Source: Chloroflexota bacterium (lineage in GTDB: Bacteria > Chloroflexota > Anaerolineae > UBA1429). Taken from it: a stretch of 45,724 nt of DNA. Positions 127 through 3,866 of this stretch are shown here, piece by piece; position 1 is the stretch's first letter, and every line of letters begins with the position of its first letter. The notes below the pieces were generated by a model, which did no database searches, was not told the DNA's origin, and saw only the letters and a program-made list of their open reading frames with translations. The position numbers and the translations under genes were made by a program. The DNA is taken from the NCBI GenBank assembly GCA_019873625.1, contig JAIOAW010000021.1, positions 1-45,724 on the forward strand. The letters are read 5' to 3'.

Positions 127-206
127 GGGCCTTCTGGGGAACGTAAGGCGCGGTTATGGCCGTGCCGCCAGTGGCTTGCCTTGGCCATGGCACGGAAATG
201 TGCAGA

Positions 207-3200
207 ATGGACACGTTACTGAAATCCTACCTCCAATCCATTGCGGAAATCACTCGGCAGGGCGATGCGCGCGAGGAGAGTTACTACCCGGCTTTGAAAG
301 ACCTGCTAGAGGCTCTCGCGCAGGCTCAGGGGAAGACTGCCCAAGTTACCGTCCTGCCCAAGCCGACTGAGGCCGGCAACCCCGATTTTCGCGTGTGGGA
401 TGGCTCGCATCAGGTCATCGGCTATATTGAGGCCAAAGCGCCAGGAGCCAAGCTGGATGTCGTCGAAACCTCGGAGCAACTCCAGCGTTACCGGCACACT
501 TTCCCGAACGTCATTCTGACCGACTTTTATGAGTTCCGTCTGTATCGCAACGGCGCATTGCAAGAACGCGCCTTGTTGGCGCGACCTTTCATCGCCCAAA
601 CGCTCAAGGCAAAACCGCCCGCCGAACAGGTCGAGGCGCTGGCGCACTTGTTTGAGGATTTCTTTGCCTTCACCTTGCCACCCAGTATGACGCCTGAAGC
701 GCTTTCAGTCGAACTGGCGCGGCGGACGCGCTTTTTGCGCGATCAGGCCATTCGCCCCGAACTAGAGCAAAAGCAAAGCGGCATCTATGGGTTCTATGAG
801 GCCTTCAAAAAGTACCTGATTGCCGGGTTGAAAGAAGAACAGTTCGCTGACCTCTATGCCCAGACCATCACCTATGGCCTGTTTGCCGCCCGCACCCGCA
901 CCCAGGGAACCTTCAACCGCCAAATGGCTTATGCCCTTATCCCCTCCACCATCGGCATCCTGCGGGATGTCTTTCAGTTCATCTCGCTGGGCAAGCCCTC
1001 CCCACAAATGGAGATGAGCATAGATGACATCGTTAGCGTGCTGAACGCCGCCGATGTGCGGGCTATCCTGACGCAATACTATCGTCAGGGCAAGGGCGAC
1101 GACCCCATTTTGCACTTTTACGAGACTTTTCTGGCCGAATACGACCCGGAGACGCGCGAGCGGCGCGGCGTTTATTACACCCCACAGCCCATCGTGCGGT
1201 ACATTGTCCGCGCCGTGCATCACCTGCTCAAGACGCGCTTCGGCCTGACCGATGGCTTGGCCGATTCCCAAGTTACCCTGCTGGACCCGGCCGCCGGCAC
1301 GCTGACCTTCCCCGCTGAGGCCGTTCAACTGGCCTTTCGCGAGTTCACTGAAAAGTACGGCGAGGGGGCAAAGGAGGCCATCCTGCGCAACCACATTTTG
1401 CCGCACTTTTACGCCTTCGAGTTGCTTATGGCGCCTTACGCCATTGGCCATATGAAAATCGGCTTCTTGCTCGAAACATTGAACGTGCCGCTGCGAAATG
1501 GCGAGCGTTTCCAGTTCTACCTGACTAATACGCTGGAGATGGAAGACCTGGAGAAAATCAACCTCCCCGGCCTCTCTTCGCTCTCCGAAGAGAGCCATCA
1601 TGCCGCCAAGGTCAAAAAGGATGAGCCGATCCTGGTTATCCTAGGCAACCCGCCCTATTCGGGCCTTTCGGCCAATCAGAACGCGTGGACTGAGGAACTA
1701 CTCAAGCGGGACGTGGATGGGGCGCAGAGTTACTACACCGTAGATGGCCAACCGCTCGGCGAAAAGAACCCTAAATGGCTGCAAGATGACTATGTCAAGT
1801 TCCTGCGCTTTGCCCAGTGGAAGGTTCACAAGGCGGGTCGTGGCATCGTGGCGATGATCACCAATCACGGTTACTTGGATAACCCCACCTTTCGCGGTAT
1901 GCGCCAGAGCCTGATGAAGACCTTTGACGAAATATACATTCTGGATTTGCACGGCAATAGCCTCAAGCGCGAAACCGCCCCCGACGGCGGCCCCGATGAA
2001 AACGTCTTTGATATCCGCCAAGGCGTGGCCATCGCGCTCTTTGCCAAATATGGCGCACCGTTTACAGCCGGCGCTTACCCAAATCATTGGCAGACGCCCG
2101 CACCTGTGTGGCATCGCCTCAAGCCAAGCGTTCAGGAAATGCGCAAGAATCCCACCCCTGCCGAAGAAGCCCTTTGGCAACGCCTGCGCGGTGAGCAGTT
2201 AGGCACCAAGTTCCGCCGCCAGCACAGCATTGATCGCTTTATCGTGGATTTCTATGCCCGCGAGCCGCGCCTGATTATCGAAGTAGATGGCCCGATTCAC
2301 GAAACACAGAGAGAATATGATGCCTTGCGGCAATCTATACTGGAGGAGTTGGGCTACCGTGTCCTGCGGTTCACGAACGATCAGGTGCTACAAAACATAG
2401 AGCAAGTCATCGCCACCATTCGGGCGGCTCTAGACCCTTCGCAAGCGAGGCAGGGAGAACCCCTTCCCCTGGCCCCTTCCCCGCAAGCGAGGCAGGGAGA
2501 ACCCCTTCCCCTGGCCCCTTCCCCGCAAGCGAGGCAGGGAGAACCCCTTCCCCTGGCCCCTTCCCCGCAAGCGAGGCAGGGGAATACCCCCTCCCCGAAA
2601 TCGGGGAGGGGGATAGAGGGTGGGGTCTACCACGCCCACCTTTACGGCCTCCGCGCCCAAAAATACGCCTGGCTGGAGGCACACGACTTTACAAACACCC
2701 CTTGGGAACCGCTCGCCCCGCAATCGCCCTATTATTTCTTTATCCCGCGGCAGACCGAAAACCTGCGGGCCTACCAAACCTGGCCGCAAATCACCGAGAT
2801 TTTCCCCACGAGTAGCGTCGGCATCGTTACTGCGAGGGATGGGTTTGCTATTGCTTTCGACAAAGCCGAATTGCAGAACCGTATCCTACAATTTCAAAAC
2901 ATACGGGGTTTGCCCGATGAGATACTGACCCAGGCCTATGGCCTGAAAGATAAACGTGGCTGGTCGTTGGCCGCCGCCCGTAAGCGCGTGCAGGCTGAAG
3001 CCAACCCGCAGGGGAAAATTTACCCCATCCTCTATCGGCCGTTTGATGTACGCTACGTTTTTTATCATGAGGCCGTCATCGAGCGCCCTCGCCTCGAAGT
3101 TATGCGCCATATGTTGGCTGGTGATAATTTGGCACTTATTACCCACAAGAGAGAAGAACTGGATGTTGCGTGGGCACACGCGTTAGTGACCAATCTGATA

Positions 3201-3866
3201 ACCGAGCACGGCATCATCTCTTCCAAAACTACGAACTATCATTTCCCCCTTTACCTCTACCCCTCTAACACCGCGCCGGATATGTTCCATCGGGAACGGC
3301 GGCCCAACGTAGCCGAATGGCTCTTGCCGAAACTTGCCGCCGCTTACGGCGCCACCCCCACACCGGAAGAAGTGCTCGCCTACATCTATGCTGTTTTCTA
3401 CAGCCCCACGTATCGCCAAAAATACGCCCAGGAACTGCGCACCGATTTTCCGCGCGTCCCTTTCACCGCCGAGGCTAGCCTCTTTCGCCAAATGGCCGAC
3501 CTGGGGGCACAACTCATAAACCTGCACCTGCTGCGCGGCCCCGGCCTGGACCCACCGCTCGTGAAATACCAAGGGCGAGGTGAGGATCAAATCGAAAAGG
3601 TACGGTATGAACCGGCCACTCGGCGCGTATACATCAATGCCGATAAATATTTTGAAGGCGTTACGCCGGAAATGTGGGAGTATCCTATCGGTGGTTACCA
3701 AGTGCTAGGGAAATACCTCAAGGATCGTCAAGACCGGCGGATGGAAGACCCCGTGCGTTACATCCACATCGCCACGGCTATCGCGCGCACTATGGGCATC
3801 CAAGAGCAGATTGACGAGGTATACCCGCAAGTGGAACATAACCCCTTGGTCTTGGCGGCCAAGTGA
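207..3866 (+). CDS. Single-chain type ISP/IIG-like restriction-modification enzyme (N6-adenine methyltransferase plus PD-(D/E)XK nuclease) interrupted by a DUF559 endonuclease
   Basis: About 1219 residues. The N-terminus has a PD-(D/E)XK-type nuclease signature: D60 in NPDFRVWDG, then E75-A-K77. A helical linker leads to the methyltransferase, with SAM-binding motif DPAAGTLTF at 360-368 and the adenine-N6 catalytic motif NPPYS at 481-485. The C-terminal part (from about residue 807, VYHAHLYGLR onward) looks like the Type_ISP_C target-recognition region. No helicase motifs are visible, so it is closer to a helicase-less ISP/type IIG enzyme than to LlaGI. Residues 617-806 are an in-frame insert carrying a second, DUF559 nuclease and tandem repeats (separate entries). 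An upstream in-frame ATG exists at 156; 207 was preferred because family-like sequence begins there (MDTLLKSYLQSIAEIT). No separate S, M or R gene adjoins it. Codon use is more A/T-rich than in the following operon, which suggests horizontal acquisition. It probably cuts unmethylated foreign DNA and modifies host DNA. Confidence 0.85.
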   Translation: MDTLLKSYLQSIAEITRQGDAREESYYPALKDLLEALAQAQGKTAQVTVLPKPTEAGNPDFRVWDGSHQVIGYIEAKAPGAKLDVVETSEQLQRYRHTFPNVILTDFYEFRLYRNGALQERALLARPFIAQTLKAKPPAEQVEALAHLFEDFFAFTLPPSMTPEALSVELARRTRFLRDQAIRPELEQKQSGIYGFYEAFKKYLIAGLKEEQFADLYAQTITYGLFAARTRTQGTFNRQMAYALIPSTIGILRDVFQFISLGKPSPQMEMSIDDIVSVLNAADVRAILTQYYRQGKGDDPILHFYETFLAEYDPETRERRGVYYTPQPIVRYIVRAVHHLLKTRFGLTDGLADSQVTLLDPAAGTLTFPAEAVQLAFREFTEKYGEGAKEAILRNHILPHFYAFELLMAPYAIGHMKIGFLLETLNVPLRNGERFQFYLTNTLEMEDLEKINLPGLSSLSEESHHAAKVKKDEPILVILGNPPYSGLSANQNAWTEELLKRDVDGAQSYYTVDGQPLGEKNPKWLQDDYVKFLRFAQWKVHKAGRGIVAMITNHGYLDNPTFRGMRQSLMKTFDEIYILDLHGNSLKRETAPDGGPDENVFDIRQGVAIALFAKYGAPFTAGAYPNHWQTPAPVWHRLKPSVQEMRKNPTPAEEALWQRLRGEQLGTKFRRQHSIDRFIVDFYAREPRLIIEVDGPIHETQREYDALRQSILEELGYRVLRFTNDQVLQNIEQVIATIRAALDPSQARQGEPLPLAPSPQARQGEPLPLAPSPQARQGEPLPLAPSPQARQGNTPSPKSGRGIEGGVYHAHLYGLRAQKYAWLEAHDFTNTPWEPLAPQSPYYFFIPRQTENLRAYQTWPQITEIFPTSSVGIVTARDGFAIAFDKAELQNRILQFQNIRGLPDEILTQAYGLKDKRGWSLAAARKRVQAEANPQGKIYPILYRPFDVRYVFYHEAVIERPRLEVMRHMLAGDNLALITHKREELDVAWAHALVTNLITEHGIISSKTTNYHFPLYLYPSNTAPDMFHRERRPNVAEWLLPKLAAAYGATPTPEEVLAYIYAVFYSPTYRQKYAQELRTDFPRVPFTAEASLFRQMADLGAQLINLHLLRGPGLDPPLVKYQGRGEDQIEKVRYEPATRRVYINADKYFEGVTPEMWEYPIGGYQVLGKYLKDRQDRRMEDPVRYIHIATAIARTMGIQEQIDEVYPQVEHNPLVLAAK
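2055..2624 (+). other. In-frame insert in the R-M gene: DUF559 (Vsr-like) endonuclease domain plus repeat tail
   Basis: The ISP-family sequence runs up to VAIALFAKYG and resumes at VYHAHLYGLR. Between them lie 190 codons that do not belong to that family. The insert contains a DUF559 domain starting near an internal Met (MRKNPTPAEEALWQRLRGEQ). Its putative catalytic acidic residues are D681 (FIVDFY) and E692-V-D694 (IIEVDG). Free-standing DUF559 proteins typically begin at this same MRxNPTPAE motif. The domain is followed by four copies of a 42-bp repeat and a 12-bp perfect hairpin. Boundaries are judged by eye from family memory and may be off by several codons. The length is a multiple of three, so the host frame survives. 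No intein splice-junction residues or LAGLIDADG motif were seen. Confidence 0.75.
2442..2582 (+). repeat. 42-bp tandem direct repeat, 3.4 copies, coding for QARQGEPLPLAPSP
   Basis: Copies start at 2442, 2484, 2526 and 2568 (the last is partial), spaced exactly 42 bp. The first three look identical. Each copy encodes 14 residues, so copy number can change without a frameshift. Right after the array, 2587-2612 is a 12-bp perfect inverted repeat with a two-base centre. The unit contains CCCCTGGCCCCTT, a core also seen in the palindrome at 36395-36443. Confidence 0.95.

Follow-up and report, generated by a model that had tools for sequence, protein, structure and literature searches.

Several described systems resemble the DUF559 nuclease unit that we report here from a restriction-modification gene of a Chloroflexota bacterium. 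Inteins with a homing endonuclease are alike in their in-frame nuclease, their patchy occupation of fixed sites, their site-specific lineages and their horizontal entry; they differ in that the ORF holding our unit has no splicing domain, the unit is flanked by repeats, and variable linkers are occupied rather than conserved motifs. REP/REPIN elements with RAYT likewise surround a nuclease-type gene with palindromic repeats and include many copies that lack the gene, but RAYT is an HUH transposase, whereas DUF559 is a PD-(D/E)XK nuclease, and only the DUF559 units are set apart by in-frame insertion. The palindromic elements of Rickettsia likewise lie inside protein-coding genes. In fungi, homing endonuclease genes are inserted inside the host gene rps3, although these nucleases are of the LAGLIDADG type, mitochondrial and without the repeats seen here. 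Vsr has its fold in common with DUF559 according to the literature; its loci, unlike those of DUF559, show no association with hairpins.

Two repeat families complete the comparison. TM/PIT repeats are reported from >260 genomes (Holder et al. 2015) and, in the sections of that paper drawn on here, are tied to instability, with no mobility gene nearby (PMC4666352). By eye, the E. coli TM repeat CCCTCTCCCTGTGGGAGAGGGCCGGGGTGAGGGC resembles the repeat CCCCTCTCCC..GGGAGAGGGG..GGGGATGAGGG that we find in MetH; the same sections describe the TM repeats of E. coli as intergenic, whereas here the repeats flank a nuclease gene and lie inside coding frames (PMC4666352). PARCEL repeats are palindromic and occur in coding genes, and differ, in the part of the account available to us, in forming arrays of a 25-residue repeat without a repeat-flanked nuclease gene (PMC2996958). 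Our search of the literature on DUF559, which left most subscription journals and preprints outside its range, found no account of an in-frame DUF559-repeat unit, and a prior description is possible.

The window, the whole stretch of 45,724 nt that was analysed (45.7 kb), carries on its forward strand a type ISP restriction-modification gene encoding nuclease, methylase and specificity functions in a single chain (positions 156..3866, 1236 aa, likely start ATG 207). Its ORF is open throughout and without interruption. Pfam places N6_Mtase at residues 317-519 and Type_ISP_C at 881-1197 (E 8.6e-88); this order of an N6 methylase and an ISP C-terminal domain in one chain identifies a type ISP/type IIG host, PADLOC assigns the ORF to type IIG, and its sequence relatives in the PDB are 7lo5, LlaBIII (4xqk) and LlaGI (5ffj). 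The first part of the host (207..2054) comprises a nuclease-like N-terminus (PD...EAK, residues 76-93) and the N6 methylase up to VAIALFAKYG, and the second part (2625..3863) comprises what remains of the methylase region together with the Type ISP C-terminal specificity domain. The gene is closely followed by an SRP54 (ffh)-like gene, and its own G+C content, at 56%, is below the 62.5% of the window, which suggests that the restriction gene was itself acquired from elsewhere.

An initial annotation of this DNA held that the host enzyme is split by 190 codons that encode a DUF559 nuclease and a repeat tail. Host homology ends at residue 633 (VAIALFAKYG) and restarts at residue 824 (VYHAHLYGLR), a break that corresponds exactly to positions 2055-2624, in frame. 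The 570 nt insert is a multiple of 3 in length, and the host frame runs through it without stops, whilst the other five frames contain 3-7 stops each; a short linker takes its place in seven relatives (8 aa in the closest). Its first part (2055..2120) joins a 5' linker to the N-terminal stretch of the DUF559 family (HWQTPAPVWHRL), and neither the window nor the related genome G053 has a repeat on this side. The DUF559 (PF04480) PD-(D/E)XK nuclease domain follows at 2121..2432 (Pfam residues 656-759, E 7.5e-35, 119.5 bits against a cut-off of 20.6; PDB relative 3hrl), with its D..E-x-D residues present. These are the catalytic residues named at the outset, D681, E692 and D694 when counted from ATG 207, and D698, E709 and D711 when counted from position 156. 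The sequence MRKNPT, previously described as a native-looking start, is present, but sits within the N-terminal region of the family (WQTP..W..LKP..EMRxxPT) and recurs in other copies.

The repeat tail noted in the initial annotation was also borne out. Three perfect tandem 42-nt C/G-rich repeats (2440..2581, translated QARQGEPLPLAPSP) are TM/PIT-like by eye and match the TM/PIT pattern only loosely; we regard them as a divergent, weakly folding variant. They are followed at 2582..2624 by the hairpin CCCCCTCCCCGA-AA-TCGGGGAGGGGG and a third G-rich arm, GAGGGTGGGG. The hairpin itself (2587-2612, z = -3.5) is the sole one of its kind in the window, and together with the third arm (2587-2624) it resembles, by eye, the TM/PIT order of Y-rich arm, loop, R-rich arm and third R-rich arm. 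A pattern search found no further copies of the 42-nt repeat in the genome of the window, with a pattern that also missed the window's own repeats and may be over-strict. No transposase domain was detected in the host ORF with Pfam, and at the ISP and MetH junctions no target-site duplication was evident by eye and no precise target was found. An AlphaFold model of residues 295-1080, of low confidence (pTM 0.51) and used for loop position only, positions the insert between two methylase-region strands, and the predicted linkers on either side have a pLDDT of about 30.

The ISP site was compared across 60 related genomes. The closest empty allele, about 81% identical (G042), has KHNNSEQRGVYHA in place of the window's about 190 extra residues, and the nuclease is also missing at this site in G011, G019, G021, G033, G012 and G052, the last of which has a short APTY repeat in that loop. 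The insert is shared by G053 (82%), where its tail has diverged and the contig then ends; between the window and G053 the embedded nuclease gives an omega of 0.14. At the window's site G027 has C/G-rich repeats without DUF559, and a DUF559 flanked by repeats lies near host residue 1067, a second ISP site; the G027 gene is spread over two contigs. The initial annotation had set a domain common to all homologues in distant taxa as the mark of an ancestral fusion; instead, seven lack it at the site and one carries a DUF559 unit elsewhere in the gene. It had also proposed a search for related copies in the genome, and the one other DUF559 there is likewise embedded in frame, in a 2024-aa Eco57I-type (type IIG) enzyme. 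This second host enzyme carries, besides its DUF559 unit, many in-frame repeat arrays at several sites. The genome as a whole contains 91 hairpins of the form CCTCTCCC-loop-GGGAGAGG, often closely paired, and a reversed control pattern returned 0.

The MetH gene, compared in 61 genomes of one bacterial family, provides a fuller series. One site in its linker occurs in three states, short, repeat-only and repeat-DUF559-repeat, and every insert length is a multiple of 3. The repeat is a double hairpin with the inverted ends CCCTCACCCC ... GGGGATGAGGG, and one lies on each side of the DUF559 gene. On the MetH host tree the DUF559 state requires 11 changes for 11 rows, equal to shuffled labels, yet the MetH nucleases form a single clade (100/98), separate from free copies in the same family; the nuclease lineage is therefore bound to the site and not to host descent. 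In the pair G305 and G313, which belong to different genera, the insert shares 85% nucleotide identity and the hosts 75%, and AU tests rejected congruence both ways (p 0.021 and 4e-5), with clades that were named after the trees had been seen. This pair calls for horizontal movement between genera, and the pattern over the whole tree could in part reflect many in-frame losses following an old insertion. Omega was 0.06-0.12 for MetH pairs with unsaturated dS, in pairwise Nei-Gojobori estimates that are rough at such high divergence. Across both hosts, the embedded nuclease is under purifying selection (omega 0.06-0.14). The MetH linker (L125-L159) also takes other short in-frame repeats (QVDTYTST.., PITNYQLP.., GTGLAPVQGAGASPAP..), and this variety suggests a hotspot used by several repeat families.

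Taken together, these comparisons lead us to conclude that the insert is probably one copy of a selfish nuclease-repeat element of a homing-like kind, translated together with its host and left unspliced. We infer the cutting, the movement and the absence of splicing. Copies at one host site are site-specific nuclease lineages, and further copies occupy linkers or loops of unrelated genes, again in frame. The selfish unit would consist of G/C-rich hairpin repeats surrounding a DUF559 nuclease gene. The nuclease would cut at or near a repeat or an empty site, repair of the break would copy the unit into the cut site, insertions that kept the frame in tolerant loops would survive, and the nuclease would then stay tethered to the host protein as an additional domain. 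The ISP, MetH and LeuRS sites each have both empty and filled alleles, as a homing element should leave, and horizontal spread into the same site is seen for MetH alone, in one clear incongruent pair. The element appears to work like a homing element, with DUF559 presumably cutting the empty allele, and it does not belong to the inteins. The mobile nuclease-repeat unit envisaged by the initial annotation is therefore supported, the seven relatives without nuclease and the wider distribution being the grounds on which movement is suggested.

An explanation that we consider unlikely is passive carriage. The hairpin repeats would themselves be mobile or unstable through slippage, recombination between repeats or another enzyme, and DUF559, with a host or repair role, would be carried between them. 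Repeats without DUF559 are far commoner than the nuclease (91 hairpins versus 2 DUF559 copies in the window's genome), the sections of the TM/PIT paper used here describe such repeats as prone to instability and lacking a mobility gene (PMC4666352), and the available part of another account links Caulobacter VsrA, a DUF559 protein, to a DNA damage response and proposes that it acts as a repair nuclease (PMC12907096). Against this stands a strong association of nuclease and hairpin across phyla. A hairpin with a C/T arm and a G/A arm lies <200 bp from DUF559 at 58 of 80 loci, on both sides at 32, where 4.2 were expected from the same contigs, and at 13 of 25 free copies of the window's class (3.4 expected); Vsr-family controls gave 0 of 25 loci. 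The pattern was picked after the MetH repeats had been seen, so the evidence lies in the difference from Vsr and from distant sequence and not in the raw count. At free copies, counts of repeat orientation by pattern disagree with examples read by eye. The site-specific nuclease lineages, and the use of DUF559 as the nuclease of real inteins, also speak against passive carriage.

In E. coli, ycjD of strain K-12 (L163:1541-2261) is a DUF559 gene. A TM repeat follows it downstream, and a degenerate one overlaps the end of its coding sequence, covering the last codons and the stop. Of 5426 E. coli genomes 3365 have the gene and about 38% lack it; it sits at one locus, so some DUF559 copies look settled. 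A clean empty ycjD site was considered and rejected, as the fabI-sapF gap in the one ycjD-less strain that was read holds an efflux operon. It is possible, and we propose it tentatively, that DUF559 supplies the mobility nuclease so far missing from the widespread TM/PIT hairpin repeats, the two jointly forming a bacterial class of unspliced in-frame mobile elements in essential genes, in whose host proteins the nuclease would be tolerated as a domain.

The range of hosts bears on a different possibility, that DUF559 was recruited as a second nuclease of the restriction-modification enzyme and kept because it aids restriction. DUF559 occurs in 183 of 396 genomes of the window's class, with about 30 copies in frames of at least 400 aa among the matches listed. 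Restriction or DNA-methylase genes account for 21 of these 30 (ISP at two sites, type IIG, type III-like, DUF1156-like and HsdR), which, with the omega of 0.14, is what a functional fusion would lead one to expect; the others are MetH (5), inteins (2), an ATPase-like ORF (1) and an apparently spurious frame (1), with host names taken partly from Pfam and otherwise from reading the sequence. Restriction-modification genes were considered as a specific target and set aside, the preference being a bias of this class that is not seen elsewhere. In a GTDB-wide scan, about 20 internal in-frame insertions stood among the best 80 DUF559 loci of the candidates listed, a set chosen by score and so skewed to the family that served as query. 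NCBIfam or Pfam confirmed LeuRS, IleRS, ValRS, UvrA, Mfd, WecB, RecG, GH31 and HsdR as hosts in scanned examples, along with MetH outside the class, at another linker; the remaining LeuRS and RecG cases were assigned by common flanking motifs, and in LeuC and RuvC the DUF559 domain is terminal, not internal. In the Gillisia family, LeuRS shows an insert-sized gap or frame in 5 of 80 genomes, and the empty loci that were read have a linker of 14-29 aa. In the tree of embedded nucleases the RecG copies group together (SH-aLRT 94), as do 7 of 9 LeuRS copies (85), with support that is modest because the DUF559 domain is short. One LeuRS insert (L291, G444) is strongly diverged and possibly a decaying unit. 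A unit of the same type in MetH, LeuRS, RecG, WecB and GH31, close relatives without the nuclease, and positions that vary within one enzyme family together make recruitment for restriction very improbable. The DUF559-repeat unit is not confined to restriction enzymes, and the insert can be explained without supposing that the host enzyme gained a function.

It is equally hard to credit that the insert is eliminated at the RNA or protein level, whether like an intein, like an intron or by ribosome bypass between hairpins, although essential genes do hold these insertions and many are hairpin-flanked. No intein family was found in the window ORF, unlike both DUF559-inteins tested, which show a C-terminal splicing domain. 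No group I/II intron or other Rfam family exceeded threshold (best 13.9 bits versus 70), the reading frame contains no stop, and the flanking sequences vary from copy to copy. These negative searches of the host ORF rule out an intein or intron identity, and fit the earlier comparison of the unit with an intein that does not splice. In related genomes DUF559 does serve as the nuclease domain of inteins, which makes a homing role for it plausible. The four such inteins (L036 in G027:C9, L038 in G031:C32, L091 and L094) form one clade, and two of them lie in a DNA methylase motif (DPTC/CGSGTT).

That the insert is an assembly artefact or pseudogene has a negligible probability: the assemblies of many relatives are drafts or derive from metagenomes, and the repeats coincide with the ends of some contigs, but the frames are open and under purifying selection, and the same architecture recurs in independent genomes, including the named strains Gillisia marina, Tamlana nanhaiensis and Flavobacterium difficile. 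An ancestral domain fusion is ruled out by the relatives without the domain and by the unrelated hosts.

For genome annotation, the selfish element proposed here means that genes with embedded DUF559 units can be misannotated. The linkers of MetH and LeuRS are natural insertion-tolerant sites, and E. coli ycjD offers a laboratory handle on the question. Mobile DNA within essential genes is expected either to be spliced out or to be lethal; in leuS, ileS, recG, uvrA and mfd, a nuclease unit appears to last as translated sequence.
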